From a virus, in IMG/VR virus record IMGVR_UViG_3300027973_000059, positions 1 to 64,000 of that record: 64,000 bases of DNA; one strand, written 5' to 3'. Under the pieces are notes generated by a model, which was not told where the DNA came from, made no database searches, and saw nothing but the letters and a program-made list of their open reading frames with translations. The translations under genes were made by a program, and so were the position numbers. Each line of letters starts with the position of its first letter. The stretch's first letter is position 1. Shown here piece by piece: positions 2,641 to 64,000 of this stretch.

Positions 2641-4005
2641 ATGATTGATATAGAAAACTACTCAAATTATCCAATTAACGACCAAATACCTAGTAATCAG
2701 TCGCTAAAAAATAAAGCCTTAGCCCAAATGAAGGCTAGAACTGATAATTATTTATCTAATCGTCCGTCTTTATCTCAATATATTAAAGATGCAGAGGAAA
2801 GGCAAAGAACTAATACTGCTAAACAAGTTGCTTTATTAGAATCGCAAAAACTTTTAAATAAAGCAGCAAGTAGTAAGGTAGCAGCAAATGCTATGAAAAA
2901 TATAGTAGAACCGGGCTTTGATGTTGCAATGTTAATAGAAGGAGGTGGATTGGCTAAAAATGCAATTAAATCTGGATTAAAATCAATGAGTAAAAAAATA
3001 GCAGTAGATGAAGCCGCATCTACTATAACTTCAAAGGGTACTACTAGATATTTTAATAAAGCTAATAAAGAACTTCCATATACTACATCAATGAGAAGTA
3101 TGGAAGAAGTTAAAAATTATAATCAAGGGCTAAAAAAACAATTTAAAACTGGTTCAACAGAAACACCTTCTGAAGCATTAAAACCATATTTAACTGATGA
3201 TAAAAAATTAGGTATTAATGATATTGATTGGGAAGAAATATCAAAAATGTATGGCCCGGCGTCTCTTTTAAGAACAAATAAAATAAAAGAAGCAGACAAA
3301 GTACTTTTAGATTTTAGAAATAGAATTTCAACTCCAGAAGGGGAAAAAAGAATGAAATCTTTATTAGGTGATAGATATGAAAAGGTAAAAAATAATATAA
3401 AAAATTTAGAATTAAAAGAAGACCCATCGGATTATGCATATTATACATCTGGTGTAATGACCGAACCATATATAGGTTTACACCCAGAATTAGATAGAGA
3501 AATGATAAAGCCAATTGTTAGACATGAAATAGAGCATGCGGTGCAAAAGGGAGCTACTACCGAAGTTGATGATATATTATCAAATTTAGAATTAAAAAAA
3601 ACTCCTAATAAAGTAAATTGGGATGAAAGAAAATTAGACAAGCAAATAAATCCACAGAATTTAAAATACAAATTAAAGGATAGACAAGATGCTACAGATT
3701 ATTTTGATTCTGGTTCTAGCGGTAGAGAAAAAGGTGCATTTCTAGGAGAATTACAACAATATATGGTTGATAAAAAACTTATATCACATCCTTATGCTGT
3801 TAATGAAATAACCCCTTCAAAAATAAGAGATGTTTTTATAGACAATATTGGGCAAGATGAATATCCGTTAAGAATATTTAACATAATGAAACCTACTGAC
3901 AATAATTATAAAATTATAGCAGATGGTTTAAATAAAATGTTAATAGGTGGGGGCGCTGTATTTGGAGCAAATAAATTAAATTCAATGAAAAATAATGAAA
4001 AGTAA
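2641..4005 (+). CDS. Putative zincin-type metalloprotein
   Basis: The 454-residue product carries the zinc-metallopeptidase signature HEIEH at 295-299, within IVRHEIEHAVQKG. This is a typical zincin helix preceded by a hydrophobic strand. The N-terminal 100 residues are helical and Lys/Ala-rich, and a short hydrophobic segment (MLIGGGAVFGANKL) lies near the C-terminus, like phage polyvalent/ejected proteins. The third zinc ligand could not be placed. Proteolytic activity and target are unknown. It lies far from the virion genes but uses similar low-GC codons. Confidence 0.5.
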   Translation: MIDIENYSNYPINDQIPSNQSLKNKALAQMKARTDNYLSNRPSLSQYIKDAEERQRTNTAKQVALLESQKLLNKAASSKVAANAMKNIVEPGFDVAMLIEGGGLAKNAIKSGLKSMSKKIAVDEAASTITSKGTTRYFNKANKELPYTTSMRSMEEVKNYNQGLKKQFKTGSTETPSEALKPYLTDDKKLGINDIDWEEISKMYGPASLLRTNKIKEADKVLLDFRNRISTPEGEKRMKSLLGDRYEKVKNNIKNLELKEDPSDYAYYTSGVMTEPYIGLHPELDREMIKPIVRHEIEHAVQKGATTEVDDILSNLELKKTPNKVNWDERKLDKQINPQNLKYKLKDRQDATDYFDSGSSGREKGAFLGELQQYMVDKKLISHPYAVNEITPSKIRDVFIDNIGQDEYPLRIFNIMKPTDNNYKIIADGLNKMLIGGGAVFGANKLNSMKNNEK

Positions 4006-13301: not shown

Positions 13302-13952
13302 ATGAAATGTATTAATTGTAAAATAGATAAAGATTCTTCTGAATTTTATTATAGAAATGATTCAGGCAAATATAGGGCTTCATGTAAGGTTTGTGAAAAA
13401 AACAGAGTAAATAAATATAGATTAGAAAAAATAGATATAATTAAGGAAAAGAAAAAAGAATATTGGAATAAAAATAAAAAAAAATTAAATGAAATTAATA
13501 AAGTAAAATCAGCTAATTATAGGCAAAATAATATTGAAAAAGTCAGAGAATCAGCTAAAAAATGGGCTAAAGAAAATAGACACAAACAGAGAGAATATAC
13601 TAATTATAGGTATAAAAATGACGTTAAATACAATTTAAATATAAAGTTAAGACGAAGGTTATTTATGTCATTAAAAAGGGCAAAAGCAAGTAAAAAGAAT
13701 TATACTATTAAATTATTGGGGTGCGATTTATTATTTTTTAAATCATATATAGAAAGTAAATTTACTGATAATATGAGTTGGGAGAATATATTAAATGGCA
13801 AAATTCATATAGACCATGTTATCCCATGTTCATCTTTTAATTTAGAAAAAAAAGAAGAACAAGAAAAGTGTTTTAATTATTCAAATTTACAGCCTTTATG
13901 GGCTTTGGATAATCTTATAAAAAGTAATAAAACATTATGTATAGAAAAATAG
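13302..13952 (+). CDS. HNH homing endonuclease
   Basis: A 216-residue, very basic protein. The N-terminus has a zinc-finger-like pair, CINCKIDKDSSEFYYR and CKVCEKN. A long Lys/Asn-rich helical linker follows. The C-terminus carries the HNH core HIDHVIPCSSFNL...CFNYSNLQPLWALDNLIKSNK. Free-standing endonucleases of this type spread by cutting alleles lacking them. It lies between the putative small terminase gene and terL and overlaps the terL start by 16 bp, so its insertion may have reshaped that start. Confidence 0.8.
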   Translation: MKCINCKIDKDSSEFYYRNDSGKYRASCKVCEKNRVNKYRLEKIDIIKEKKKEYWNKNKKKLNEINKVKSANYRQNNIEKVRESAKKWAKENRHKQREYTNYRYKNDVKYNLNIKLRRRLFMSLKRAKASKKNYTIKLLGCDLLFFKSYIESKFTDNMSWENILNGKIHIDHVIPCSSFNLEKKEEQEKCFNYSNLQPLWALDNLIKSNKTLCIEK

Positions 13953-16040: not shown

Positions 16041-18434
16041 TTGGCAGATAGTCCTTTATCAATATCAGCAGCAAATAGTAATGGAGAAGCTTTAAAAAAG
16101 TTTCAAATTACTACCGATGTATCTTCTAAGAAAGATTACATGTACGGTAAAAATGTTGCGCAAAGCATCTACTCTACAATATACGGTAACCAAACTTATT
16201 TTTGGTTAAGAAATAATAGATTTAGAAAAAATAGACAAATTGCAAATGGTAAAATAGACATGAGTGTGTTTATGGACCGTTTAGAAATGAACAGCAAAGC
16301 TAACTTTGTAAATATAAATTGGAAATCAATTATTATAGGTAATACAATTGTTGCAAGGTTAGTTGGCTCATGGATGAGTAGAAGAGAGAAAGTTACAGTT
16401 GTTGCAACAGATAGTGCATCAGCAATGTTAAAAAAAGATGCAGCTGATGAAGCAGAATTTGTTTATCAAAATAAAGAAGTGCTTTCTCAATTACAGCAAG
16501 AGTCTGGTGTACAAATTATTCCACAAGACCAATTTGTAGCTGAAGATAAAGATGAATTAGACCAATGGATTTCAGAATTTAATCATTTACCGGAAGAGAT
16601 ACAATATAGTATAGGATGTAATAATGTACTTGAAGCCAATGGTTGGAATGATGTTTTAAAACAAAGACTATTACATGATTCAGCAGAAGTTGGGTTAGTG
16701 TGTACATATACTTGGATGGATGAAGAAGGGGAAGTTCATGTTCAATGGATTCGTCCTGAAAACGCAATTTATTCATATTCTGATTTCCCAGATTTTAGAG
16801 ATACAACATATCGTGGACATATCTTGTCTATGAAAATAAGTGAAATAAGAGCTAGATATGGTAAAGCTAGTGGTGGAACATTATCTGAAGAAGATATATT
16901 TATGTTAGCTCAGTCATGTAAGGAATACCAATTAACGGATAAGATTAAGTGGATGCAAGATTGGAATGTTTCTTGGCTAAGACCTTATGATGAGTGGAAT
17001 ATTGATTTAATGAATTTTGAAATTAGAACATTAGATTCTGATGGATATACTGTTACCAAAACTAAAAAAAATGGTAGCACAATTATAAGAAAAGGCAAAC
17101 CAGAAAAACTTGATGAGAATCAAGAATATTTAGAAGAGAAAAAATGGAATATATACGAAGGTGTGTATTGTCCTGTTACTCAAAAGATGATTAAGTGGGG
17201 AATTAAGAAGAATATGATTCGCCCTCAAGACCCTAAAGAAATTGGTAATGCTGAATTTTCATATAGTTTATATATGTACGACCCATACGATATGCGTAAT
17301 GTGGCTGTACCTGAAAAAATAGAAGAACCTATTGAGCAAATGATTTTGGCTAGATTGAAGATACAACAAATGGTAGCTAAGATGGTGCCAGCAGGTGCTT
17401 CTATTGATGTTGACGCATTACAAGAGCTTGATTTAGGTTTAGGTGATTCAGTTAAACCATTAGACGTACAAAAGATTTGGGAACAAACTGGTAAACTTTA
17501 TTATCGTGGTAGAGATGCCGAAGGTAATAGAATACCGGTGCCAATCACAGAATTAGCTAATACAGGATTTGCTCCTCAATTACAAGCTTTAATTCAATTA
17601 TACCAATTCCATTATCAAGTATTAAAAGATGAGCTAGGAGAAGACCCTAACTTAATGAATCAAGCTGCACAGCCAAGAGTTGCTGCGTCAAATATAGAGG
17701 CTTCAAGAGTTTTAGCTAATAATGCAACCGAATATATGTATGATGCATATATTTATGTAATGGAAGAAAGCTGTAAAAAAATAGCTTGTTTATTGAATAA
17801 AAGCGTAACATACGGAGCTAAGAAATATAGAGATTTGTTAAAACAAGAAGATGTAAAAGATAGGAATTTTGTTGCAACGGTAAAAATGTTACCAACAGAA
17901 GTAGAGATAGCAAATTTGCAAGCAATGATGAATAATGCTATTGCATCAAATCCTCAATTAATAATATATTTAGACCCTTTTAAAGCAATGAGAATTGCAA
18001 AAGAGAATGTGTCATTAGCTGAACTATATTTTAGACAAGCTCAAAAAAGATATATAAAAACAGAGCAAGAAAAAGCTCAAGCCAATAGTGAACAAAATGC
18101 ACAGATTCAACAATCTAGCATGCAAGCTAAGGCTCAAGGGGATGCTGCTTTGTTAGATAAGCAAACGCAAGCTAAACAAAGAGAAATTATAATTCAAGGT
18201 ATGTTTGATTTAGCTAAAGCTAGTATACCAATGCCAGTAGAATTAAAACCTTTAATAGCTGAAATGTTACAAAATGTTGAAATGCCATTAATGATGGATA
18301 ATCAACAAATGGAACAAGCTATCCAACAACAAGAAATGGAAGCTCAGCAACAAATGATGCAACAACAAGGTCAACAAGGTTCTCCTGAAGAACAACAAAT
18401 GATGATGGAACAACAACAAATGCAACAACAATAA
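16041..18434 (+). CDS. Portal protein
   Basis: A 797-residue protein whose size, position after terL and composition fit a phage portal, the dodecameric DNA gate at the head vertex. The first codon is TTG; the next ATG is 100 bp further and would lose conserved-looking sequence. A stem-like segment near residues 430-480 is rich in Met and Gln. A long helix near 510-590 includes DELGEDPNLMNQAAQPRVAASNIEASRVL. The last 60 residues are a Gln/Met-rich tail (QQQMMQQQGQQG). Such tails are common in large portal proteins of Bacteroidota phages. Confidence 0.8.
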   Translation: MADSPLSISAANSNGEALKKFQITTDVSSKKDYMYGKNVAQSIYSTIYGNQTYFWLRNNRFRKNRQIANGKIDMSVFMDRLEMNSKANFVNINWKSIIIGNTIVARLVGSWMSRREKVTVVATDSASAMLKKDAADEAEFVYQNKEVLSQLQQESGVQIIPQDQFVAEDKDELDQWISEFNHLPEEIQYSIGCNNVLEANGWNDVLKQRLLHDSAEVGLVCTYTWMDEEGEVHVQWIRPENAIYSYSDFPDFRDTTYRGHILSMKISEIRARYGKASGGTLSEEDIFMLAQSCKEYQLTDKIKWMQDWNVSWLRPYDEWNIDLMNFEIRTLDSDGYTVTKTKKNGSTIIRKGKPEKLDENQEYLEEKKWNIYEGVYCPVTQKMIKWGIKKNMIRPQDPKEIGNAEFSYSLYMYDPYDMRNVAVPEKIEEPIEQMILARLKIQQMVAKMVPAGASIDVDALQELDLGLGDSVKPLDVQKIWEQTGKLYYRGRDAEGNRIPVPITELANTGFAPQLQALIQLYQFHYQVLKDELGEDPNLMNQAAQPRVAASNIEASRVLANNATEYMYDAYIYVMEESCKKIACLLNKSVTYGAKKYRDLLKQEDVKDRNFVATVKMLPTEVEIANLQAMMNNAIASNPQLIIYLDPFKAMRIAKENVSLAELYFRQAQKRYIKTEQEKAQANSEQNAQIQQSSMQAKAQGDAALLDKQTQAKQREIIIQGMFDLAKASIPMPVELKPLIAEMLQNVEMPLMMDNQQMEQAIQQQEMEAQQQMMQQQGQQGSPEEQQMMMEQQQMQQQ

Positions 18435-43006: not shown

Positions 43007-43549
43007 ATGCGCCAAATAAAAGATTATTCAGATTATTTAGTTACCGTAGATGGTAAAATATTTTCGCTTAAAAGTATGAGATTTTTAAGCCAAAATAATA
43101 AAACAAAAGCTGGGTATCCTCGTGTGCAAATGTTTAATGAGTATGGCTTTAAATGGCAAACAATACATAGACTAGTCGCAGAAACATATTTACCAAACCC
43201 TGAAAATAAAGCTCAGGTAAACCATATGGATGGAAATAAGGCTAATAACTTATTATGTAATTTAGAATGGGCAACGCCTTCTGAAAATCAAAAACACGCT
43301 TGTGATACTGGATTAAGAGTTGTGAATGAAAAAATGTTGAAAGCATTAAGTGATGGAGGAAAGAAGAACGGAGCAGCAAATGGAAAAAAAGCTAGGTTAA
43401 AAACATCCAAAATTATTTTAGACGACTCAACAGGTATTTATTATACTGGTGTTAAAGAAGCTGCTGTTGCATTAGGTTTAAAACCAACTACATTAAGGGC
43501 TAGGTTGAGTGGACAAAATCAAAATTTAACAACATTTAAATACGTATAA
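43007..43549 (+). CDS. NUMOD4/HNH homing endonuclease
   Basis: A 180-residue protein with NUMOD4-like start (MRQIKDYSDYLVTVDGKIFS), then an HNH-type core (HRLVAETYLPNPENKAQVNHMDGNKANNLLCNLEWATPSENQKHA). A C-terminal DNA-binding NUMOD1-like helix-turn-helix follows (GVKEAAVALGLKPTTLRARL). It sits between two virion genes and ends one base before the TTG start of the fibre gene. Group members are mobile and normally have no function for the phage. Confidence 0.85.
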   Translation: MRQIKDYSDYLVTVDGKIFSLKSMRFLSQNNKTKAGYPRVQMFNEYGFKWQTIHRLVAETYLPNPENKAQVNHMDGNKANNLLCNLEWATPSENQKHACDTGLRVVNEKMLKALSDGGKKNGAANGKKARLKTSKIILDDSTGIYYTGVKEAAVALGLKPTTLRARLSGQNQNLTTFKYV

Positions 43550-43550
43550 A

Positions 43551-46500
43551 TTGGCAATTCAAGGATTAATTTCAGGCGATTTAAAGGTAAGAGCGCTAAA
43601 TGGCGTACTTATAGCAACGGACGGAATTGTAACTGCTACGAGCTTCTCATCAGGTTCTAGTGGGACTGCTGGTTCGAGTGGAAGTAGTGGTACCAGTGCA
43701 ACTTCAGGTACTAGTGGTACAAGCGCTACTAGTGGTACAAGCGGTACGACTGGAACGAGTGGAAGTAGTGGCACAAGCGGTAGCAGTGGAACGAGTGGAA
43801 CGACTGGAACAAGTGGTAGCAGCGGTTCTAGTGCAACTAGTGGTACAAGTGGAACGAGTGGCTCAACTGGAACAAGTGGTTCTAGTGGAAGTAGTGCAAC
43901 ATCTGGAACAAGTGCTACAGCAGGTACAAGTGGTACAAGTGCTACTAGTGGAACGAGTGGAACAGATGGTACAAGTGGGACTAGTGGCAGCAGTGGCTCT
44001 AGTGGTACAAGCGCGACAAGTGGGACTAGTGGAACAGATGGTTCTGGAGGAACAAGTGGTACGAGTGGAACCAGTGCGACAAGTGGTACGAGTGGAACGA
44101 CTGGGACCAGTGGCAGCAGTGGAACAAGTGGTTCGTCTGCTACAAGTGGTACGAGCGGTTCTAGTGGAACCAGTGCGACAAGTGGCACAAGCGGCACAAG
44201 CGGTTTACAAGGCGATAGATATGCCACAACTTCATCGACAACATTTACATTGGGTAATGCAGGGACTTTAACTGTAGGTACTCAATTAGCATATACGGTA
44301 GCTCAATCTATTATTGTGGTTTATGACGCAACCAACTTCCAAGAGTGTGAGGTTACAGCTTATAATCCAGCAACAGGTTCTTTATCATTTGCAGCTCCAA
44401 CAAGAACAGTAGGTAGCGGAACTTATTCTGCTTGGTCTGTAAACTTAGATGGTGCGAGTGGAGGAGATGGTAGCTCAGGTACAAGTGGTTCTAGTGGCTC
44501 TAGTGCAACGGCGGGTACAAGTGGTACAACCGGAACAAGTGGTAGCAGTGGTTCAGCTGGTACGAGTGGAAGCACTGGCACGAGCGGTAGCAGTGGTACG
44601 GCGGGTTCAAGTGGCACAACTGGGACTAGTGGAAGCAGTGGAAGTAGTGGCAGCAGTGGCTCTAGTGGCTCTAGTGGAACGGCTGGTACCGCAGGAACGA
44701 GTGGTCGTAATGGTATAGATGGTTCATCAGGAGCTTCAATTGCTAACTGGTATGGTGCGTTTACAAGTACAGCTACTCAAGTGGTTACAGCGGCAAATAC
44801 ACCAACAGCAATTACATATACCAATGATGAATTAAGTAATGGTATGGCTTATAGTGGTTCACAACTTACTGTTCAACATACTGGTATCTATGAGATTGCT
44901 TATTCATTACAAATAGAACATACAGGAGGAGGAGGAGCAGATGTTGACATTTGGTTAAAGAAAAATGGCACTAACGTTGTTAGAACTGACTCTATCTTAG
45001 GTTTAAGAAGCCAAAGTGCAAAGCAATTGCCATTTGTTTCTATTATTGATAGTGCAAATGCTAATGATTATTATGAAGTTTATTTTCAAGCAAATGCATC
45101 TGATGTTCAAGTAACAGCAGTCGCAGCAACAGGTACAATACCAGCAGCACCATCAATAATTACCAACATAAAACAAATTGGTATAGCTGTAGGTACAACT
45201 TCAGGAACTAGTGGTAGCAGTGGTTCTAGTGGAGTAAATGGTTCAAGCGGAAATACGGGTTCAAGTGGTTCGGCAGGTTCTAGTGGAACGAGTGGTTCAA
45301 GCGGTAGCAGTGGAACGAGTGGTGGCACAGGTTCTAGTGGTTCAGCAGGTTCAAGTGGGACGACTGGAACGAGTGGTAGTTCTGGTACAAGTGGTAGCAG
45401 TGGGACAAGTGCAACAAGTGGGACAAGCGGCTCTAGTGGGACAAGTGGCAGCAGTGGAACGACTGGTACTTCTGGTACGAGTGCGACAAGTGGCATTGGT
45501 GGTAGTGGAACAGCTACTCAAGTGGCTTATTTTACTTCTTCAGCAGCTATAAGTAGTTCATCTAATCTTTATTGGGATAATACTAATAATAGATTGGGTA
45601 TTGGTACTTCATCTCCAAGTGCATCAGTTACTGCTTCTGCAACTACGGCTTCAACTCAATTTAAAGCATTTGGTACAGGACCGGGGATGACATTTAGTGA
45701 TGCGGTAGCTTCAGTAACTTATGGAGGTGCAATAGGTGTAGCAACAGTATCAAATAATTATATTACAGGAGCAGTAGCAGGAGATATGGCAATTACAAAC
45801 CAATCTGCTTCAACAGGCGCAATAGTATTCGGATTAGGAACTGCCGAAAAGATGAGAATGACCTCTACAGGAAAATTATCAATTGGTAATACTAATGATA
45901 CTTATAACTTAGATGTTAGTGGTACAGGAAGATTTACTTCTACATTATTGGTTAGTGGCTTATTAACTGCTTCAGGGTTTGGTTCAAATAGTTTTTCTTC
46001 AGGAGGTACAGGGTATAATAAAATAACAATTAGAAATACTACGGCTGGTGCGGCTAATGGTGCTCAATTAAGCGTAGGAACTGATGCCGACCCCGACCAA
46101 TTTTATGTTCAATCATTTGCAACAACATTTACAACAAGTGGAATGAATATAGCTGGTGGTGCCGTTGTTAATGGAGAAGGGCCAGGTGGTTTAAGTATAG
46201 CAGCAACTCAATCAAATATTGGATTTTATACTAATGGTTCAGGTGCTGCAAACGAAAGAATGCGTATTACAAGTGGGGGTTTAGTTGCAATTGGTGCAGT
46301 ACAAACTTCTCCATCTGCTGTTGTAGATTTAACATTAGGATTGAATAGATATATAATGTGGGGTACAAGTGGAAGTGGAGCAGGTACAGTTAGGTCTTAT
46401 GGTATTTCAAACAATGAATTAGCAGCAGGAGATTTTGTAATTAAATCTTCAAGTACAAATAATAATACACTTGATACTGTTAAAATGCAAATTTTAAGTA

Positions 46501-46868
46501 GTGGAAATATATATAATTATAATAATACAACTACTTGGAATACAACTTCAGACATTAGAGTAAAAGAAAATATTAATACAATAGAAAATTCTTTAGATGT
46601 TATATTAAAATTAAACCCTGTTTCATTTGATTATAAAGATGAATTTGCAAATAAAAAGAGATGGGATAATAAACAAAAATTAAATAATATTGGATTTATT
46701 GCACAAGAATTTGAAACAATATTTCCTAAATATGTTACATATTCAGATGATATAATTAATAATGAAGAAGTAAATGATTTTAGAAGTATTGATACAGGGC
46801 ATTTGGTTGCATATTTAGTAAAAGCTATTCAAGAATTAAATGAAAGATTAAACAAAGCAGGGTTGTAG
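43551..46868 (+). CDS. Tail fibre with Gly-Ser/Thr repeats and S74 chaperone
   Basis: A 1105-residue protein starting at TTG just behind the HNH gene (MAIQGLISGDLKVRALNG). Three repeat blocks of collagen-like triplets (GTS, GSS, ATS; almost no Pro or charge) cover residues about 37-220, 302-390 and 552-655, separated by globular domains. The last 105 residues form a peptidase-S74 endosialidase-type chaperone, with S1000-D1001 in TTSDIRVKENI the likely self-cleavage residues, and end with a coiled coil (VKAIQELNERL). The chaperone drives trimer assembly and is then cleaved off. The Ser/Thr density makes it a candidate O-glycosylation substrate. Confidence 0.85.
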   Translation: MAIQGLISGDLKVRALNGVLIATDGIVTATSFSSGSSGTAGSSGSSGTSATSGTSGTSATSGTSGTTGTSGSSGTSGSSGTSGTTGTSGSSGSSATSGTSGTSGSTGTSGSSGSSATSGTSATAGTSGTSATSGTSGTDGTSGTSGSSGSSGTSATSGTSGTDGSGGTSGTSGTSATSGTSGTTGTSGSSGTSGSSATSGTSGSSGTSATSGTSGTSGLQGDRYATTSSTTFTLGNAGTLTVGTQLAYTVAQSIIVVYDATNFQECEVTAYNPATGSLSFAAPTRTVGSGTYSAWSVNLDGASGGDGSSGTSGSSGSSATAGTSGTTGTSGSSGSAGTSGSTGTSGSSGTAGSSGTTGTSGSSGSSGSSGSSGSSGTAGTAGTSGRNGIDGSSGASIANWYGAFTSTATQVVTAANTPTAITYTNDELSNGMAYSGSQLTVQHTGIYEIAYSLQIEHTGGGGADVDIWLKKNGTNVVRTDSILGLRSQSAKQLPFVSIIDSANANDYYEVYFQANASDVQVTAVAATGTIPAAPSIITNIKQIGIAVGTTSGTSGSSGSSGVNGSSGNTGSSGSAGSSGTSGSSGSSGTSGGTGSSGSAGSSGTTGTSGSSGTSGSSGTSATSGTSGSSGTSGSSGTTGTSGTSATSGIGGSGTATQVAYFTSSAAISSSSNLYWDNTNNRLGIGTSSPSASVTASATTASTQFKAFGTGPGMTFSDAVASVTYGGAIGVATVSNNYITGAVAGDMAITNQSASTGAIVFGLGTAEKMRMTSTGKLSIGNTNDTYNLDVSGTGRFTSTLLVSGLLTASGFGSNSFSSGGTGYNKITIRNTTAGAANGAQLSVGTDADPDQFYVQSFATTFTTSGMNIAGGAVVNGEGPGGLSIAATQSNIGFYTNGSGAANERMRITSGGLVAIGAVQTSPSAVVDLTLGLNRYIMWGTSGSGAGTVRSYGISNNELAAGDFVIKSSSTNNNTLDTVKMQILSSGNIYNYNNTTTWNTTSDIRVKENINTIENSLDVILKLNPVSFDYKDEFANKKRWDNKQKLNNIGFIAQEFETIFPKYVTYSDDIINNEEVNDFRSIDTGHLVAYLVKAIQELNERLNKAGL
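43660..44205 (+). repeat. Fibre repeat block 1 (GTS/GSS/ATS triplets)
   Basis: Nine-base units encoding Gly-Thr-Ser, Gly-Ser-Ser or Ala-Thr-Ser recur about 60 times with many synonymous variants (AGT/AGC; ACA/ACG/ACT), so the block is old rather than a recent slippage expansion. Confidence 0.85.
44455..44720 (+). repeat. Fibre repeat block 2
   Basis: Same triplet repeat as block 1, with GSS triplets in a row near 44630-44670. Confidence 0.85.
45205..45510 (+). repeat. Fibre repeat block 3
   Basis: Same triplet repeat, beginning after a TNF/C1q-like beta domain and ending before the C-terminal shaft. Confidence 0.85.
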
Positions 46869-51378: not shown

Positions 51379-51603
51379 ATGAATAAAGTAAAAGAAATAT
51401 TGCTGTCTTATATGACTGCTATGAATCCAACAGAAAAACAAAAAGAAGTAGCTGAAAAAAGACTTGAAATATGTATGGATTGCGAGGAATGGGCAAAAGA
51501 TGCCATAGTACAACATTGCAAAGCTTGCGGGTGCGCTACAAAAATTAAAGTGTTTACCCCTGTAGGTTCTGGGGCTTGCCCAAGGTCTAAATGGACAATA
51601 TAA
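51379..51603 (+). CDS. Small Cys-rich, probably zinc-binding protein
   Basis: A 74-residue protein with CMDCEEWAKDAIVQHCKACGCATKIKVFTPVGSGACPRSKW. Six Cys arranged as CxxC, CxxCxC and a last Cys indicate one or two zinc sites. This type is frequent in phages. Function unknown. Its stop overlaps the next start (TAATG). Confidence 0.6.
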   Translation: MNKVKEILLSYMTAMNPTEKQKEVAEKRLEICMDCEEWAKDAIVQHCKACGCATKIKVFTPVGSGACPRSKWTI

Positions 51604-52499
51604 TGGCAATAGTTTACATACATAGAAGAAATGATATACAAGATGCATTCTTAAATGTATTTTATGTTGGTATTGGTAAAAATACCCAAAGGGCTTATGA
51701 TAAAAGAAAAAATGATAGGTCTGATTTTTGGCATAAAATAGTTGCTAAAAGTGGCTATGCAATAGAAATTACACATGTTAATTTATGTTGGGAAGAAGCT
51801 TGTGCAATAGAAAAATATTTAATATGTTTTTATGGCAGAAGAAATTTGAATTTAGGTAATTTGTGCAATTTAACTGATGGCGGAGAAGGTGTAATAGGTC
51901 ATATAGATACGCCTGAACAATTAGAAAAAAGAATACAAGCAGCAATAATCGTTAATAATAGAGATGGGGCTAGAGAAAAAATGAGCATAGCTTTAAAAAA
52001 AGCAACTTCTAGTCTAGAACATAGAAAAAAAATGAGTCAATTAGGCAAAGAAGCAAGTAATAGACCTGAAGTAAAACAAAAAAGATTAGAAAAATATAAA
52101 ATATTATTACAAAATCCTGAATTTAAAGAAAAGCATAGATTAGCAACAAAAATGGCATTAAACAACCCTGAAATTAGAAAAAAAATTAGTGAAGGTGGGA
52201 GGATAGCACAAAATAAACCAGAGGTAAAAGAAAAAAATTTAATACATCTTAAAAAATTACATGAGAATAAAAAACTTTTAGAAAAAAGGAATAATTCTAT
52301 TAAAAAGGCTTGGGAAGAGAAAAATAAACTAAATATAACATTATCAATAAAAAGATGTGAGAACCCTAGATGCAATAAGGATTTTGAGCAAAAAAGGTCA
52401 TTTCAGAAATATTGTTGTTATAATTGTGGGGGAAGCGTTTACAAGCAAAAAAAACGAACAATGGCAAAAAAAGTGGACAATATAAGTAAATTTATTTAA
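51603..52499 (+). CDS. GIY-YIG-type homing endonuclease with NUMOD3 repeats
   Basis: A 298-residue protein from ATG 51603 (MAIVYIHRRNDIQDAFLNVFYVGIGKN), a GIY-YIG-like core continuing with RSDFWHKIVAKSGYAIEI, EEACAIEKYLICFYG and CNLTDGGEG. The middle has several NUMOD3-like DNA-binding repeats (HRKKMSQLGKEASNRPEVKQK and variants). The C-terminus is a zinc finger (CENPRCNKDF...YCCYNCG). Mobile gene placed between a small Cys-rich protein and the lysis cassette. Confidence 0.75.
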   Translation: MAIVYIHRRNDIQDAFLNVFYVGIGKNTQRAYDKRKNDRSDFWHKIVAKSGYAIEITHVNLCWEEACAIEKYLICFYGRRNLNLGNLCNLTDGGEGVIGHIDTPEQLEKRIQAAIIVNNRDGAREKMSIALKKATSSLEHRKKMSQLGKEASNRPEVKQKRLEKYKILLQNPEFKEKHRLATKMALNNPEIRKKISEGGRIAQNKPEVKEKNLIHLKKLHENKKLLEKRNNSIKKAWEEKNKLNITLSIKRCENPRCNKDFEQKRSFQKYCCYNCGGSVYKQKKRTMAKKVDNISKFI

Positions 52500-58808: not shown

Positions 58809-59345
58809 CTAACTAGGTAAGTATTGTTTTGGTATATTAGTATTCAGTAATCTGTAGCCATTCTGTGCATACTGAGTAAGTTTTTCTGTCAATACCTGCT
58901 TGAAGTAATCCGGGTGGTTCTGCCAAACCTCTTTTAATGGCATTTTAAAGCCTATTTCTCGGTACTTCTCTTCGTTACCTATCAAGATGGCTTTCTGCAT
59001 TTTTTTAGTCAATGTTTTGGCGTGTAAATCATCATCTCTTTTCTTTACCAATTTTTCAACCGCCTCATCAATGTAACGCGTTAAATTCATGTCTAATTCC
59101 AATGTTCTACCAATGAGCTGTGCATCCCATGTAATGGGTGGTAATGTCAGACAATAGGTTTCTGCTAGCTTAATCAATTGCCTGCTAGCATCGGTCCCAT
59201 CATGGCAGTAATCAGTTTCACCACCAATACCTCTATTCTCTGTGGTCCCACATTTAACACCATCAACCCAAATATTTGCTTGGAAGCAATAAGTTTCCTC
59301 GCTTAATTTGTCATAGAATTTAAAGTTTTTAAGTTCAATTTTCAT
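58809..59345 (-). CDS. Unknown protein, conserved-looking, behind a ribozyme
   Basis: A 178-residue protein (MKIELKNFKFYDKLSEETYCFQANIWVDGVKCGTTENRGIGGETDYC) with a beta-rich N-terminus and helical C-terminus (AVEKLVKKRDDDLHAKTLTKKMQKAILIG). I recall this pattern from hypothetical proteins of many phages. Its start lies 19 nt beyond the predicted cleavage site of a hammerhead ribozyme. A terminator follows its stop. Confidence 0.55.
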   Translation of the reverse strand: MKIELKNFKFYDKLSEETYCFQANIWVDGVKCGTTENRGIGGETDYCHDGTDASRQLIKLAETYCLTLPPITWDAQLIGRTLELDMNLTRYIDEAVEKLVKKRDDDLHAKTLTKKMQKAILIGNEEKYREIGFKMPLKEVWQNHPDYFKQVLTEKLTQYAQNGYRLLNTNIPKQYLPS

Positions 59346-59358
59346 GTTATAATTTTTT

Positions 59359-59414
59359 GGTTAATACGGGCTATAAATAACCCGTTTCAAGGATTCACCT
59401 ATCATCAGTTAACC
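59359..59414 (-). ncRNA. Hammerhead ribozyme (type I), variant core
   Basis: On the minus strand: GGUUAA, CUGAUGA, stem II AGG/CCU with a U-U first pair, GAAA, stem III A-CGGGUUA/UAGCCCG-U, cleavage base A, then UUAACC pairing perfectly with GGUUAA. All conserved core bases are present except the first stem-II pair. The 5' strand overlaps the UAG stop of the upstream gene; the cut would leave a 19-nt leader before the ATG at 59345. Confidence 0.75.
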
Positions 59415-59617
59415 TAATCTAAAATGAATCTAATAATTAATGTGTCATTGTTAAATACATTAATATTCAACATTCGTTCAAATCTTCTAATGTCAATTGG
59501 TTTTATTTCTTGCCTAATAGATTCTGCTATAAAGTCTTCATCACTGCAAGTTAAACAATTGAAATTATCATCCATTTTATCAACGTCTATTGAATAGACT
59601 TTAATTGAATTTATCAT
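59414..59617 (-). CDS. Small unknown protein upstream of ribozyme
   Basis: A 67-residue protein (MINSIKVYSIDVDKMDDNFNCLTCSDEDF) with an alpha/beta pattern. Its UAG stop provides the first base of the downstream ribozyme stem. No family recognised. Confidence 0.5.
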   Translation of the reverse strand: MINSIKVYSIDVDKMDDNFNCLTCSDEDFIAESIRQEIKPIDIRRFERMLNINVFNNDTLIIRFILD

Positions 59618-59618
59618 T

Positions 59619-60002
59619 TTATCTAATTTTAAAATTTGTAAATTGTTTATCTAATTCAAATGCATTCATCCATGGGACATTGATAGGTTCCACTCCAAAG
59701 TAATTTATAGGATTACCTAGAATCTCACATTCATCAATACCATCTATTTGTTGGGTGCAATATTCTCTGACATCATCTTTACCCCAAGTAAGCAAATATC
59801 CAATACCCCATATCTCGCAATAGGGTTCATCATTTGCACTTTCTTGATGAAAGTTAACATCTAGTTTAGTTCCATCTTTAAGTTCAAATCCATGCCAAAA
59901 ATCACCTGTGTCACCGGCATTTAAATCAAACATAAAGATATGGTCTTGATAATGCAAAGTCAATACTTTGTTATCATAATCAACTACGAATTTGTTTTCC
60001 AT
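59619..60002 (-). CDS. Unknown acidic protein
   Basis: A 127-residue acidic, beta-rich protein (MENKFVVDYDNKVLTLHYQDHIFMFDLNAGDTGDFWHGFELKDGT) with many Trp and Asp. It ends one base before the next start. No motif recognised; acidic small proteins in early clusters may act on host DNA-binding proteins, but this is speculation. Confidence 0.5.
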   Translation of the reverse strand: MENKFVVDYDNKVLTLHYQDHIFMFDLNAGDTGDFWHGFELKDGTKLDVNFHQESANDEPYCEIWGIGYLLTWGKDDVREYCTQQIDGIDECEILGNPINYFGVEPINVPWMNAFELDKQFTNFKIR

Positions 60003-60013
60003 GATTTTTAATT

Positions 60014-60277
60014 TTAAAATATTAAAGATTGTTCGTTATAAAATGGTTTGTAATCATCCATAAAAGCCTCAAATTTTAGCTTATCATTTAAGGTGGTACA
60101 TTCTATTACATACTTATCATGTAGCCTTAATTCGTCTTTAATTGCATCATGCAAATATGCTGTTTGTTTTTTATCACATTCATTTGCTAGCATCTTAAAT
60201 AATTCATCTGCATCAAATTCTTCTAGAATTCTAGCAATCCAATTTTCTAATACTTCAGTAGGTATTTTGTTTTTCAT
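60014..60277 (-). CDS. Small acidic helical protein
   Basis: An 87-residue protein (MKNKIPTEVLENWIARILEEFDADELFKMLANECDKKQ) preceded by the leader TTAAACAAAATG. No family recognised. Confidence 0.5.
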   Translation of the reverse strand: MKNKIPTEVLENWIARILEEFDADELFKMLANECDKKQTAYLHDAIKDELRLHDKYVIECTTLNDKLKFEAFMDDYKPFYNEQSLIF

Positions 60278-60287
60278 TTTGTTTAAT

Positions 60288-60560
60288 TTAAAATCGTTTA
60301 TAATATTTATTGAATCTTTTTTTTGTTTGCATATACCAAGTTTTATCCTCGGTAGATTTTATAATTACCCAATATAAAAATTTACAATAGCATTCACCAT
60401 CACCTTCATGATAATCAGATGCAGTGAATCTACCTTTATGTCCATCGTAATGAAGACCACAATAAGGTGCAGTTTCGTAATCGTAATTTTTAATATAATC
60501 TAGTCTATTATCTAGGTAATAAAATAGATTGTAAAGAGAGCGTAATAAATAATTTTTCAT
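60288..60560 (-). CDS. Small aromatic-rich protein
   Basis: A 90-residue protein very rich in Tyr (MKNYLLRSLYNLFYYLDNRLDYIKNYDYETAPYCGLHYDGH), with a CYCKF motif near the end. Leader TTTAAACAAAATG. No family recognised. Confidence 0.5.
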   Translation of the reverse strand: MKNYLLRSLYNLFYYLDNRLDYIKNYDYETAPYCGLHYDGHKGRFTASDYHEGDGECYCKFLYWVIIKSTEDKTWYMQTKKRFNKYYKRF

Positions 60561-60565
60561 TTTGT

Positions 60566-60763
60566 TTAAATTTTATTAAGTTCAAAAATTAAATCACAAG
60601 CGGATAACTTTGGCAAATTGTGAAGCTCACAATAAGCTAAATAAAGAACATTTGCCCCATCTATCCAATCATCATTTTTAAATGTTTCACTTGCTTTATA
60701 CCATGCCTCCATAAATCCTTTTAAGAATGCTAAATGCTCGCTTTGTGTTTGTGCGTTTTTCAT
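60566..60763 (-). CDS. Small helical protein
   Basis: A 65-residue protein (MKNAQTQSEHLAFLKGFMEAWYKASETFKNDDW). Helical; no motif recognised. Confidence 0.5.
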   Translation of the reverse strand: MKNAQTQSEHLAFLKGFMEAWYKASETFKNDDWIDGANVLYLAYCELHNLPKLSACDLIFELNKI

Positions 60764-60796
60764 TGTGTGTTTGTTTAAAGGTTATTTGTTTAATAA

Positions 60797-61054
60797 TTAT
60801 ACTGCGATAGTCCAATCAGTAACTTCAAAACTTACATTTGAACTAACCGAATATCCTTTTGCTCTTAATCTACTTGCCACCACAGGCATATAGGTAAATT
60901 CTTCTACCGACCACCCAAAGGCGGGCGCTCTATAACAAGTTTCAAATCGGGTGTGCAACCTATCCCCTAATTGCTTGATAATTCGGTTTTCTAATTCAGT
61001 TAAAAAAAGTTCTTTCTTTTCTTGTGGTGTCATTGTTTGTGTTAATGTTTGCAT
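60797..61054 (-). CDS. Small unknown protein
   Basis: An 85-residue protein (MQTLTQTMTPQEKKELFLTELENRIIKQLG). A helical N-terminus is followed by a beta-rich end (GYSVSSNVSFEVTDWTIAV). Leader TTAAACAAAATG. Confidence 0.5.
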   Translation of the reverse strand: MQTLTQTMTPQEKKELFLTELENRIIKQLGDRLHTRFETCYRAPAFGWSVEEFTYMPVVASRLRAKGYSVSSNVSFEVTDWTIAV

Positions 61055-61071
61055 TTTGTTTAATTTATTAT

Positions 61072-61323
61072 TTAAAAATTTGTTTCATTTAATACAGCAA
61101 TTCTTTCAACTTGAATATTCCAAGTTTCTAAATAAGCAAATAAATATTCATCACTTTTTTGAATTTCGTTTTTAGAATAATCATTTGCCAATTCATCTAT
61201 ATCATACCACCTATCCCACATACTGGTTAGAATATAATTTCTCAATCCTTTTAAGGTAAAAAACTTTGGAGGTTCAGCCAATTCATCTTTGTCAGTAATT
61301 TTGTAAACGATAATTTTTTTCAT
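61072..61323 (-). CDS. Small unknown protein
   Basis: An 83-residue protein from ATG 61323 (MKKIIVYKITDKDELAEPPKFFTLKG), chosen over the longer frame (to 61398) because it directly follows the TTAAACAAAATG leader. Acidic with an alpha/beta pattern. Confidence 0.5.
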   Translation of the reverse strand: MKKIIVYKITDKDELAEPPKFFTLKGLRNYILTSMWDRWYDIDELANDYSKNEIQKSDEYLFAYLETWNIQVERIAVLNETNF

Positions 61324-61333
61324 TTTGTTTAAT

Positions 61334-61750
61334 TTAAAATTTGATAAATTGATAATCGTATTCACCTTCATATGCTCCAATAAAAATTGAATCATCACCT
61401 AAATTTATTTCATCAAGTTCTTCGGGGTCTGATAATGTAATTGCGCCACAGATACGACTATGCCATTCCTTTTTGTTTAGGATTGGATGTACTTCATTTA
61501 CATTGCAAAAAATCATTACACCATAAAGTTTTTCAGCATTACGAATAAAAGTGAATGAACCTTGGTCTTCACCTTTCTCATAACTGATGCATCCTAAACT
61601 TGATTCAATATTCTCAGCACCCGTTTGAATTTGCACTAATGATTCTAAATAATTTTGTGCTTCTAAATCATTCTTAAATTTTCTTATGTAAGCTAGGTTT
61701 TCAGATGAATAACCTTCGCCATTCCATGTTTCTACAATTGCGTATTTCAT
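61334..61750 (-). CDS. Unknown protein
   Basis: A 138-residue acidic protein from ATG 61750 (MKYAIVETWNGEGYSSENLAYIRKF), again picked because of the TTAAACAAAATG leader; the frame runs on to 61792 inside the upstream gene. Contains a SYEKGEDQGSFTFIRN segment. No family recognised. Confidence 0.5.
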   Translation of the reverse strand: MKYAIVETWNGEGYSSENLAYIRKFKNDLEAQNYLESLVQIQTGAENIESSLGCISYEKGEDQGSFTFIRNAEKLYGVMIFCNVNEVHPILNKKEWHSRICGAITLSDPEELDEINLGDDSIFIGAYEGEYDYQFIKF

Positions 61751-61760
61751 TTTGTTTAAT

Positions 61761-61949
61761 TTAATTGTGACTAAATGCGATGCTTTGTACATAAATGCCT
61801 TTGCCCCAAAACTTTTCGTAAATTTTTTTAATTTTAAATTTGTCTTGGTTTGAATTTTTAAAAATTGGATTGTTTAACAAATCAATTTTTTCAGTTCTAA
61901 AAATTTCTCCGTTTGTTGATGTGATTTTTGCGAATCTGTAAGTTTTCAT
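61761..61949 (-). CDS. Small basic protein behind ribozyme and hairpin
   Basis: A 62-residue basic protein (MKTYRFAKITSTNGEIFRTEKIDLLNNP). Its message would begin at a predicted hammerhead cut 44 nt upstream, and the leader contains the hairpin at 61970-61984. No family recognised. Confidence 0.5.
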   Translation of the reverse strand: MKTYRFAKITSTNGEIFRTEKIDLLNNPIFKNSNQDKFKIKKIYEKFWGKGIYVQSIAFSHN

Positions 61950-61969
61950 TTTGTTTTTTCAGTTTTTAA

Positions 61970-61984
61970 TGTGGTGCCTCCACA
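61970..61984 (-). other. Conserved leader hairpin TGTGGAGGCACCACA
   Basis: On the minus strand TGTGG and CCACA pair around AGGCA, between the ribozyme and the start codon. The same hairpin with AGTCA in the loop is at 62966-62982. Confidence 0.5.
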
Positions 61985-61987
61985 ATT

Positions 61988-62038
61988 GATTAAGACCACC
62001 CGAAGGTGGTTTCGTCCATTAGGACTCGTCAGTTAACC
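61988..62038 (-). ncRNA. Hammerhead ribozyme (type I)
   Basis: On the minus strand: stem I GGUUAA/UUAAUC (one G-U pair), CUGACGA, stem II GUCC-UAAU-GGAC, GAAA, stem III CCACC-UUCG-GGUGG closed by the A-U pair, cleavage base C (GUC). All core nucleotides match the hammerhead consensus. It lies between the UAG stop of the DUF932-like gene, whose G it shares, and the gene at 61949. Confidence 0.9.
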
Positions 62039-62946
62039 TAGATAACATTAGCGTATACTGATTCAAATAACTTCTCATCTAGTGTACGTTGTTGGTCAAA
62101 AGTTTTTTTCAATTTGCCATGGATTAATTCATTGAATGCATTGTATACTATCCATTGGTTTGGATTAGTATTAAGCAATCTAGTTTCACGCTCAACTACA
62201 TCAAAGATGAAACGAGCATTTGCACTAGGCTCCGGATTCTTATCAGATGCCTCATATTTAAAAATACCTAGGTTCTTCGCAGTTACCTTAACATAATCCT
62301 CAAGATTGTAAACCGGACGCTCAGCAAGTACTTCAAATTTGCGCTTCAATGTAAAGAATTCGTTGTCCATAAATTGACTAACAATCGTATCCAATTTAGG
62401 CATAACAATATCAGCAATGGCACCCGAATGCTTAACAGAAAAACCAATGTGAGTCTGTGCAACATGTAAGCCATTGTCACATACCTTGCGCCAAAAACCA
62501 AAGGAACCACTAGTCTTGCATGAACCATCATAAGAATTAACAAAGCGCAACATAGGACGCAGGATATCCTTATCACCTTTAACCTCTACTTTATAGCGGT
62601 CATCAGCTAGGATATAATCCACTACAAAAGAACGATTGTCGCGGTTAATACTACGCTGTTGGTAGTAGATGTCAGCGTCAATCAACTTTTCTTCCACGCC
62701 TAAAAAGAACTTCTCATTAGGCAGGTGGCCATAAGAATTAGAAACCACATTCACGATTTGATTCTCGCAAATGATTGCATTCTCTAAACCTCTTCTAGAG
62801 CTTAATCCGGTCAATTCTTGCAATGGGACTACCTTGGACTCAACCAAGACATTATCTTGTCTAGAATTGGCTAAAATGTGGCTTAGTTTTGATTCTGCTG
62901 AATCAATAGAATGCGCTGAGAAATTGTCGTTAAAAATACTTTTCAT
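62038..62946 (-). CDS. DUF932-like protein
   Basis: A 302-residue protein from ATG 62946 (MKSIFNDNFSAHSIDSAESKL). The longer frame to 62982 runs into the leader hairpin and is rejected. It shows the DUF932 pattern: LRPMLRFVNSYDGSCKTSGSFGFWRKVCDNGLHV, with beta-rich N-terminal half. DUF932 proteins are common in phages and plasmids with no settled function. It is the largest gene of the small-gene cluster, has more GC-rich codons and is flanked by ribozymes on both sides. Confidence 0.7.
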   Translation of the reverse strand: MKSIFNDNFSAHSIDSAESKLSHILANSRQDNVLVESKVVPLQELTGLSSRRGLENAIICENQIVNVVSNSYGHLPNEKFFLGVEEKLIDADIYYQQRSINRDNRSFVVDYILADDRYKVEVKGDKDILRPMLRFVNSYDGSCKTSGSFGFWRKVCDNGLHVAQTHIGFSVKHSGAIADIVMPKLDTIVSQFMDNEFFTLKRKFEVLAERPVYNLEDYVKVTAKNLGIFKYEASDKNPEPSANARFIFDVVERETRLLNTNPNQWIVYNAFNELIHGKLKKTFDQQRTLDEKLFESVYANVI

Positions 62947-62965
62947 GATAATAGTGCAGTTTTTT

Positions 62966-62982
62966 ATGTGGTGACTCCACAT
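62966..62982 (-). other. Conserved leader hairpin ATGTGGAGTCACCACAT
   Basis: On the minus strand ATGTGG and CCACAT pair around AGTCA, 20 nt before the DUF932-like ATG, and downstream of a ribozyme as in the copy at 61970-61984. Confidence 0.5.
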
Positions 62983-62985
62983 TAT

Positions 62986-63051
62986 GGTTAAGACGGGTAA
63001 GTGGGGGAACTTACTCCGTTTCGGCTATATCTAAGCCATCCTCAGTTAACC
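62986..63051 (-). ncRNA. Hammerhead ribozyme (type I), variant stem II junction
   Basis: On the minus strand: stem I GGUUAA/UUAACC, CUGAGGA, one extra U, stem II GGCU/AGCC, GAAA, stem III CGG(A)GUAAG/CUUACCCG with a bulged A, cleavage base C (GUC). The extra U after the core may lower activity. The cut would leave a 45-nt leader before the DUF932-like ATG at 62946. Confidence 0.8.
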
Positions 63052-63054
63052 TCG

Positions 63055-63306
63055 TTACATCAATTCATATCCGTATACAATCTTACCATCTATAAACAAT
63101 GGTGTGTATTCGCCATGACTAGCAACCATATCATCTAATTCATAGAAAGTGGTTGATTTTGCTATACCTAATTCATGACAAACGGCAATCACAGTTCCAT
63201 CTCCTCCAAAAATTGGATGCTCATAAAATTCAATCAATTGCTTTTGATTGTTGACGATTTCACCATATTTAAATGGATTTAGGCTCATTAATTTTGAATA
63301 ATTCAT
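63055..63306 (-). CDS. Small unknown protein upstream of ribozyme
   Basis: An 83-residue protein (MNYSKLMSLNPFKYGEIVNNQKQLIEFYEHP) with an alpha/beta pattern; leader TAAACAAAATG. Its stop is 3 bases before the ribozyme. Confidence 0.5.
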   Translation of the reverse strand: MNYSKLMSLNPFKYGEIVNNQKQLIEFYEHPIFGGDGTVIAVCHELGIAKSTTFYELDDMVASHGEYTPLFIDGKIVYGYELM

Positions 63307-63324
63307 TTTGTTTAGTTTAATATA

Positions 63325-63567
63325 TTATTTAATGGTAATAGGTTCAGAATAAAAGGCAAAAATCTCTCTAGAATAAGATGCGTAAGGGGTTTGCAATGCC
63401 TCTCCATTTTCTAGCATTTGTTCTATCTTTTTTTTCTTATAAAAGTTACTTAAAACTTTAATACCTTTTTCAATAGATAAGATTTCTAAATCTTTGGTAA
63501 TGTTATCCTCTCTCATAATAACATAAATGGGCTTCGACATTTCTTTTTTGTTTTGTGTGTTTTTCAT
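63325..63567 (-). CDS. Small unknown protein
   Basis: An 80-residue basic protein (MKNTQNKKEMSKPIYVIMREDNITKDLEILS). The first ATG (63567) follows TAAACAAAATG; a second at 63540 is possible. The sequence SKPIYVIMRE...ALQTPYASYSREIFAFYSEP is alpha/beta. No family recognised. Confidence 0.5.
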   Translation of the reverse strand: MKNTQNKKEMSKPIYVIMREDNITKDLEILSIEKGIKVLSNFYKKKKIEQMLENGEALQTPYASYSREIFAFYSEPITIK

Positions 63568-63572
63568 TTTGT

Positions 63573-63743
63573 TTAGTTTTGAAGGTTAAGTGAATTGATT
63601 TGAATACGAGCATTTAATAGCTTCCATTCATTGTAAGCAGATTTGAAATCTTTGCCTAATTGAATGTGAGCATTAATAAATTTCTCATAGCTAGATGGGG
63701 AACGTTTAATGCGTCTACCACTAGTAGTAAATACTTTTTGCAT
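63573..63743 (-). CDS. Small basic protein behind ribozyme
   Basis: A 56-residue basic protein (MQKVFTTSGRRIKRSPSSYEKFINAHIQLGKDFKSAYNEWK). Its ATG is 20 nt beyond the predicted cut of the ribozyme at 63758-63806. No family recognised. Confidence 0.5.
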   Translation of the reverse strand: MQKVFTTSGRRIKRSPSSYEKFINAHIQLGKDFKSAYNEWKLLNARIQINSLNLQN

Positions 63744-63757
63744 AATAGTTTTTTTTT

Positions 63758-63806
63758 GGTTAAGACGCCCGCAGGCGTTTCGTCCATTAGGACTCGTCAG
63801 TTAACC
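63758..63806 (-). ncRNA. Hammerhead ribozyme (type I), minimal 49-nt form
   Basis: On the minus strand: stem I GGUUAA/UUAACC perfect, CUGACGA, stem II GUCC-UAAU-GGAC, GAAA, stem III CGCC-UGCG-GGCG closed by A-U, cleavage base C (GUC). Every core base fits. The first G belongs to the UAG stop of the upstream gene. Confidence 0.92.
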
Positions 63807-64000
63807 TACTTACATAATGTAATATTTATACCTTCCGCTTCACCTTCAAGCCATCCTCTGCCATTGTGAAATACTAGAGGTACATTCAATTTGTTAGCTA
63901 CCTCAATTGAATCGGAGCTAATTTTTCCTTGAAGCATAATCCTACCGCCAAACGCTGTTTCAATGCTTACTGCATAAAATAAATCTAAATCGATTTTTAA
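63806..64000 (-). CDS. Partial gene, 5' end outside window
   Basis: An open minus-strand frame from the window edge to UAG at 63806-63808 gives 64 residues ending LEGEAEGINITLCK. It has an alpha/beta pattern (VSIETAFGGRIMLQGK; SSDSIEVANKLNVPLVFHNG). The start lies beyond 64000, so the family cannot be judged. The stop is part of a ribozyme. Confidence 0.5.
   Translation of the reverse strand, partial: LKIDLDLFYAVSIETAFGGRIMLQGKISSDSIEVANKLNVPLVFHNGRGWLEGEAEGINITLCK

Follow-up and report, generated by a model that had tools for sequence, protein, structure and literature searches.

Hammerhead ribozymes at gene borders of a phage operon as putative self-cleaving cassettes that set mRNA ends

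RNase III sites between the early genes of phage T7 cut the polycistronic phage RNA into single-gene mRNAs. Processing into gene-length mRNAs has also been proposed for hammerhead ribozymes, multiple copies of which flank prophage genes; tandem arrays of these elements cleave in vitro, and a triple array from A. tumefaciens cleaves in E. coli (Perreault et al. 2011, PMC3088659). Here we analysed the window, i.e. the whole stretch of 64,000 nucleotides (nt) that makes up bases 1-64000 of the 66,344-base viral record IMGVR_UViG_3300027973_000059, and in particular the hammerhead ribozymes located at gene borders of its minus strand. A previous interpretation made from the letters alone, in the following termed the sequence-only reading, had regarded serial intercistronic hammerheads as not well described, a view that has to be corrected given that the 2011 study already reported them and proposed processing.

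Like the arrays described in 2011, this locus combines several hammerheads around single genes or gene blocks in a phage or prophage operon. Unlike in that description, a single operon carries five type I copies with a near-common stem I plus a type III copy in the leader, and the exchange of a hammerhead for a terminator-like hairpin sets the locus further apart. Moreover, the stop codon lies inside the ribozyme and the spacing from cut to ATG is fixed, a geometry that may set it apart from the 2011 loci. Core, topology and cleavage site are those of the Rfam families RF00163 (Hammerhead_1) and RF00008 (Hammerhead_3), but the copies scanned here stay below the gathering scores. In T7 a host protein cuts at the RNase III sites, whereas here the RNA itself should do so, giving a 5'-OH and a 2',3'-cyclic phosphate. 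Intrinsic-terminator-like hairpins occupy the same border behind the DUF932 gene in some relatives (L128-L131 and L135); hammerheads, in contrast, lack the T-run and would let transcription continue. Beyond the 2011 paper, an open library, with subscription journals outside its scope, yielded no work on phages of Bacteroidota or on an overlap with stop codons. What this analysis adds is the geometry of the cassette, a stem I with hardly any variation, the type III copy in the leader and the presence of the elements in cultured Flavobacterium and Cellulophaga phages.

The record contains the following hammerheads, with E5 and the type III copy found only in the part beyond the window:

63758-63806, minus strand: type I hammerhead E1; predicted cut between 63764 and 63763
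62986-63051, minus strand: type I hammerhead E3, 5' of the DUF932 gene; predicted cut between 62992 and 62991; longer stem III and an extra U at the base of stem II
61988-62038, minus strand: type I hammerhead E2, 3' of the DUF932 gene; predicted cut between 61994 and 61993
59359-59414, minus strand: type I hammerhead E4; predicted cut between 59365 and 59364
64048-64107 of the record, past the window edge: type I hammerhead E5, the fifth copy
64356-64413 of the record: type III hammerhead in the operon leader, just 5' of the operon's first small gene

All four window copies follow the scheme GGUUAA-CUGANGA-(stem II)-GAA-A-(stem III)-U-H/UUAACC, where the slash marks the cut and E2 has UUAAUC as its last strand. 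Stem I comprises 6 bp and is open, stems II and III are closed by loops, pair A15.1-U16.1 starts stem III, and the core CUGANGA ... GAAA is conserved in these copies as well as in E5. H17 is C in three window copies (GUC) and A in E4 (GUA); across our collection it is C in 133 copies and A in 61, the scan itself excluding G. Judged by sequence and structure, none of the four elements lacks a part of a type I hammerhead ribozyme, and the hammerhead fold of E1 is its minimum-energy fold. The leader copy has closed stems I and II, an open stem III and the core, its minimum-energy structure being the type III fold. In a 16-member alignment 99.6% of the cells pair, 10 of the 16 pairs are altered on both sides, the covariation score is 0.561 (0.135 if shuffled, at most 0.098 if slid), and RNAalifold gives the hammerhead fold unprompted. 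An A at position -1 (97%), an A at +1 (99%) and a UNAAU loop II are also conserved, none of them being part of the search pattern, which is consistent with, although not proof of, a tertiary contact between stem I and stem II. The sequence-only reading had the four elements, with core and cleavage site framed by a shared stem I, exact in letters and position; its array of four is real but understated, as the record holds five type I copies and the type III copy.

When the window is scanned structurally for hammerheads of types I, II and III, these four and no others are recovered. Matches to the motif including both strands of stem I number five in the window (0.46 expected); the fifth, at 3194 on the plus strand, is regarded as a chance match, since neither the structural scan nor a covariance model accepts it. 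In the window and 13 relatives found via the DUF932 protein the structural scan yields 39 hammerheads and none in any of 10 dinucleotide shuffles, and at least 120 viral contig stretches with the stem I plus core pattern contain 83 hammerheads as compared to none in each of three shuffles. Totals from these viral contig scans, by DUF932 protein or by pattern, are lower bounds among the matches listed, and the search pattern biases the collection to a GGTTAA stem I, a bias of which the stop, start and flank statistics are free. With a stricter pattern, in which the core letters and the two strands of stem I are set while stems II and III are free, 153 of 173 distinct matches form stems II and III and a UH site, as opposed to 0.36% with shuffled inner segments; the remaining matches mostly have one bulged stem. 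Trained on 13 sequences from other phages and none from the window, a covariance model finds E2, E1, E4 and E3 at 64.6, 56.2, 49.0 and 35.9 bits, respectively (E 8e-16 to 1e-7), the next window match being at 11.8 bits (E 0.9); as the training sequences share stem I, these E-values reflect sequence as well as structure.

At the Rfam gathering scores there is no match anywhere in the window. With RF00163, E1 reaches 31.5 bits (E 8e-5) as compared to a gathering score of 34 and E2 reaches 20.3 bits, and with RF00008 the type III leader copy reaches 35.8 bits (E 2e-5), below the gathering score of 48.5. Taken literally, the outcome that the sequence-only reading named as refuting, no covariance-model match above threshold, thus holds for Rfam, whereas the independent model detects all four copies, which show the defining features of sequence and structure. 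No hammerhead in eight related or ribozyme-rich contigs passes gathering either; since these also fail and all defining features are present, the sub-threshold scores stem from the breadth of the Rfam model and not from an absence of hammerheads. As no scanned copy passes the cut-off, standard annotation overlooks these elements.

The position of the elements relative to genes is strict. In the window E1, E2 and E4 share the last base of an upstream UAG stop codon (that of DUF932 in the case of E2), whereas E3 lies 3 nt behind a UAA, and the next start codon follows 19, 20, 44 or 45 nt after the predicted cut. The UAG overlap in three of four copies is as the sequence-only reading had it, and its spacing of 19-45 nt holds if counted from the cleavage site, but not from the element end (about 13-39 nt). 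Among 194 distinct type I copies the upstream stop is the UAA of GGUUAA in 51, the core UGA in 29 and an overlapping UAG in 25, and a stop lies within 5 nt before the element in another 51. For the 179 type I copies with enough flank, compared with random positions nearby, a stop codon is found at -11 to +5 in 85% (control 6.5%), an ATG 18-24 nt after the cut in 71% (control 3.4%), and a stop at -11 to +5 together with an ATG 9-50 nt after the cut in 81% (control 2.1%); open reading frames (ORFs) were called mechanically, so these percentages are noisy in both directions. The leader from cut to ATG is 59% A and 4% G. The best-supported conclusion is that the elements form a standard gene-border cassette, i.e. 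a stop codon in or beside stem I, the cut, and a short leader to the next ATG. Scan and stop/start positions support the sequence-only reading in that hammerheads lie at gene borders of one operon in a geometry fitting mRNA processing; the changes in mRNA stability or translation it envisaged may ensue. No intrinsic terminator (GC-rich hairpin plus T-run) is present at any hammerhead border in L006.

The proteins encoded downstream of hammerheads are diverse (80 groups among 104). A tie to one downstream gene family was rejected, as 60 proteins encoded directly behind a type I hammerhead match few families and most match none. RadC-like, GP88 and DUF932 proteins recur among these 60, which come from several loci; together with the remark of Perreault et al. 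(PMC3088659) on ardA near hammerheads, this hints at early accessory or counter-defence genes.

Independent support comes from relatives that were found through DUF932, a protein unrelated to the ribozyme. Scanning viral contigs with the DUF932 protein gave at least 13 loci with 67-97% identity, and in 13 of the 13 relatives listed a hammerhead or an altered copy is located immediately 5' of this gene. Stem I is GGTTAA/TTAACC in 29 of the 32 type I copies of these relatives and GTGTAA/TTACAC, a fully compensated change, in two more. On the 3' side a hammerhead begins at the stop codon in the window, L127, L132, L133 and L134, whereas L128-L131 and L135 have an intrinsic-terminator-like hairpin at the same site, which a terminator scan confirmed for L128. 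This swap points to selection for forming ends or for separating the expression of neighbouring genes. Other borders are kept as well, with the orthologue of the 56-amino acid (aa) gene behind E1 preceded by a hammerhead in L127, L128, L129 and L139, and that of the 178-aa ORF behind E4 likewise in L127.

Based on these findings we consider it likely that self-cleaving hammerheads serve as gene-border cassettes in a minus-strand operon of a tailed phage, where they would set mRNA ends and uncouple neighbouring genes; that similar arrays cleave (PMC3088659) speaks for this function. The operon would be transcribed from a TTTG-N19-TATATTTG promoter ahead of the type III copy. A leader of roughly 340 nt would then be removed by this copy, whose stem I hairpin would stay at the 5' terminus of the first mRNA. 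The type I copies, which begin at or next to the upstream stop, would each cut 19-45 nt before the next start codon, and the polycistronic RNA would thus cut itself into shorter mRNAs with set ends. The upstream product would carry stems II and III at its 3' end, closed by a 2',3'-cyclic phosphate, and the downstream product would start with a 5'-OH and a typically short, G-poor leader. What the analysis shows is the ribozyme architecture with its covariation, the geometry at gene borders, their conservation and the replacement by terminator-like hairpins; we infer cleavage in the cell, this end chemistry and the effect on expression. The copies probably serve, in a manner comparable to an intrinsic terminator or an RNase III site, to define the ends of mRNAs and to make adjacent genes independent. 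A role in tRNA processing was considered and rejected, as the window holds no tRNA. A stop-ribozyme-leader cassette that is exchangeable for a terminator-like hairpin at one border provides a concrete hypothesis of how mRNA ends may be defined by RNA only; it recurs across many phages and bears on the role of hammerheads in bacteria and phages, a question standing since 2011.

Several points weigh against this function as a gene-border cassette. The cuts and the RNA 5' ends are predictions for every copy, and the single transcript of the minus-strand genes is deduced from gene order. In isolation, a competing fold of E3 has the minimum energy, the minimum-energy fold of E2 leaves stem I open, and E4 has a U.U at the base of stem II. 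The terminator replacement is limited to one border in few related genomes. Finally, the copies before DUF932 in two relatives (L130:5893-5951 and L131:2152-2210) are naturally altered, with pair 15.1-16.1 inverted from A-U to U-A and stem II disturbed, so that cleavage is not needed at every border.

Cleavage might instead be conditional, gated by a ribosome terminating in stem I or by a ligand at an expanded stem III, which we regard as unlikely. In 85% of the copies the stop codon is within or next to stem I or the core, so that a ribosome terminating there would be expected to shield the 5' portion of the ribozyme; yet compact packing alone predicts such an overlap because GGUUAACUGA holds stops in two frames. 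As to a ligand, stem III of some relatives contains a three-way junction (AGCUA, a 6-bp hairpin with an ARA triloop, G, a second hairpin and GG), for instance in L133:3512-3617, L134:1962-2067, L021:1661-1762, L235:2759-2862 and L236:2212-2315. The motif is present in eight stretches, its covariation score is 0.546 (0.236 if shuffled) and it matches no Rfam family, making it a candidate ligand-binding domain, but stem III of the window copies is an ordinary short hairpin. A fuller version, in which the upstream ribosome keeps the ribozyme unfolded so that cuts are translation-gated and some relatives add ligand control via stem III, appears a shade more doubtful still; if true, natural gated hammerhead switches would be spread through a large phage group. 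Other classes of long stem III inserts occur in L227, L233, L230, L232, L231, L238, L222 and L240, some of them in related phage pairs.

Alternatively, the ribozymes could be selfish or neutral units copied among gene borders and kept as nearly harmless. Stem II is identical in E1 and E2, stem I is nearly invariant, the number of copies differs between relatives, a decayed copy exists and the downstream genes are diverse, all of which would fit such units. However, stems II and III diverge with compensatory changes, implying selection on function, the placement at gene borders is strict, and the position before DUF932 is occupied in every relative listed, so that we deem this explanation improbable. 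Less credible by far is a religation of the 5' and 3' products that would yield circular or rearranged mRNAs. The GGUUAA/UUAACC arms are common to the copies, so the products would be interchangeable, and DUF932 sits between two copies; but the record contains neither an RNA ligase (PF09414) nor an RtcB (PF01139) gene, and Perreault et al. (PMC3088659) saw no such products when they searched for circular or spliced RNAs. The least probable explanation of all is that the elements are hairpins arisen by chance, or hammerheads that have degenerated and are inactive. The failure at the Rfam gathering scores might be quoted for it, but as to chance it is already contradicted by the empty shuffles, the covariation and the matches of the independent model.

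The type III copies are positioned differently, being located ahead of the type I copies in 11 of 13 mixed loci; unlike in type I, a stop codon between -11 and +5 is absent from all compact type III copies. The promoter motif TTTG-N19-TATATTTG, matching TTTG-N19-TAnnTTTG, which is of the Bacteroidota promoter type, lies 341 nt 5' of the type III copy in this record. Between motif and hammerhead there is a long non-coding leader (64414-64782 of the record; about 7915-8283 of L006, minus strand), which is conserved in L206 (77% over 484 nt) and partly in L132 and L212, with conserved blocks including AAGCGAT..TTCACCGC..GACAACGGCAATG. It has no convincing match in Rfam and is possibly an undescribed structured RNA freed by the ribozyme.

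The elements are also found in isolated phages. Our covariance model matches Flavobacterium elemo phages (44.8 bits) and Cellulophaga phage phi19:3 (40.6 bits). In phage elemoE a type III copy lies at 18098-18152, with the first gene of a leftward operon following after 14 nt; a type I copy is located at 16304-16361 and is overlapped by gp65, a small annotated ORF on the opposite strand that is probably spurious. For an elemo phage (NC_055854), which can be grown on Flavobacterium sp. BAL314, the predicted cuts are at about 18146 and 16310 on the minus strand. A type II call in the elemo phages was taken as a chance match, as it has a low score and lies inside an annotated coding sequence. No hammerhead was detected in the 24.8 kb read of F. 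psychrophilum phage 1H, the source of the nearest named DUF932 protein, or in the two stretches read of the circular record MW202828. The terminase of the window is nearest to the elemo and phi19:3 groups, with less than 30% identity; based on these relatives and the promoter motif the virus would be a tailed phage with dsDNA, its nearest named relatives being phages of Bacteroidota, and the host itself presumably belonging there as well. As isolated phages with cultured hosts carry the elements, their function can be tested in infected cells.

The other features of the operon, in the order of transcription, are:

63806-64000, minus strand: small ORF upstream of E1, its UAG stop overlapping E1; start past the window edge, directly after E5
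63573-63743, minus strand: 56-aa ORF, starting 20 nt after the E1 cut
63325-63567, minus strand: 80-aa operon ORF
63055-63306, minus strand: 83-aa ORF, phrog_11770, ending 3 nt before E3
62967-62981, minus strand: leader hairpin UGUGG-AGUCA-CCACA behind E3, before DUF932
62038-62946, minus strand: DUF932 protein gene (PF06067, E 3.5e-15), bracketed by E3 and E2
61970-61984, minus strand: leader hairpin UGUGG-AGGCA-CCACA behind E2
61761-61949, minus strand: 62-aa ORF after E2
59414-59617, minus strand: 67-aa ORF, its UAG stop overlapping E4
58809-59345, minus strand: 178-aa ORF, starting 19 nt after the E4 cut

The hairpins behind the two hammerheads that flank DUF932 have a conserved AGKCA loop, and relatives keep the hairpin with an altered stem, e.g. 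AAGGTG-AGGCA-CACCTT in L130; a translational operator or a stabiliser of the 5' end are possible roles. At about 60270-63570, minus strand, a repeated AAATTAAACAAAATG-like start region stands before most of the genes that have no hammerhead in front. Elsewhere in the window, positions 51591-52499, 43007-43549 and 13302-13952 encode three proteins that, judged by eye, look like homing-type endonucleases (GIY-YIG, HNH), and positions 43551-46868 encode a 1105-aa protein with long GTSGSSGTSATSG-type repeats, the C-terminal part of which resembles a self-processing tail fibre domain.

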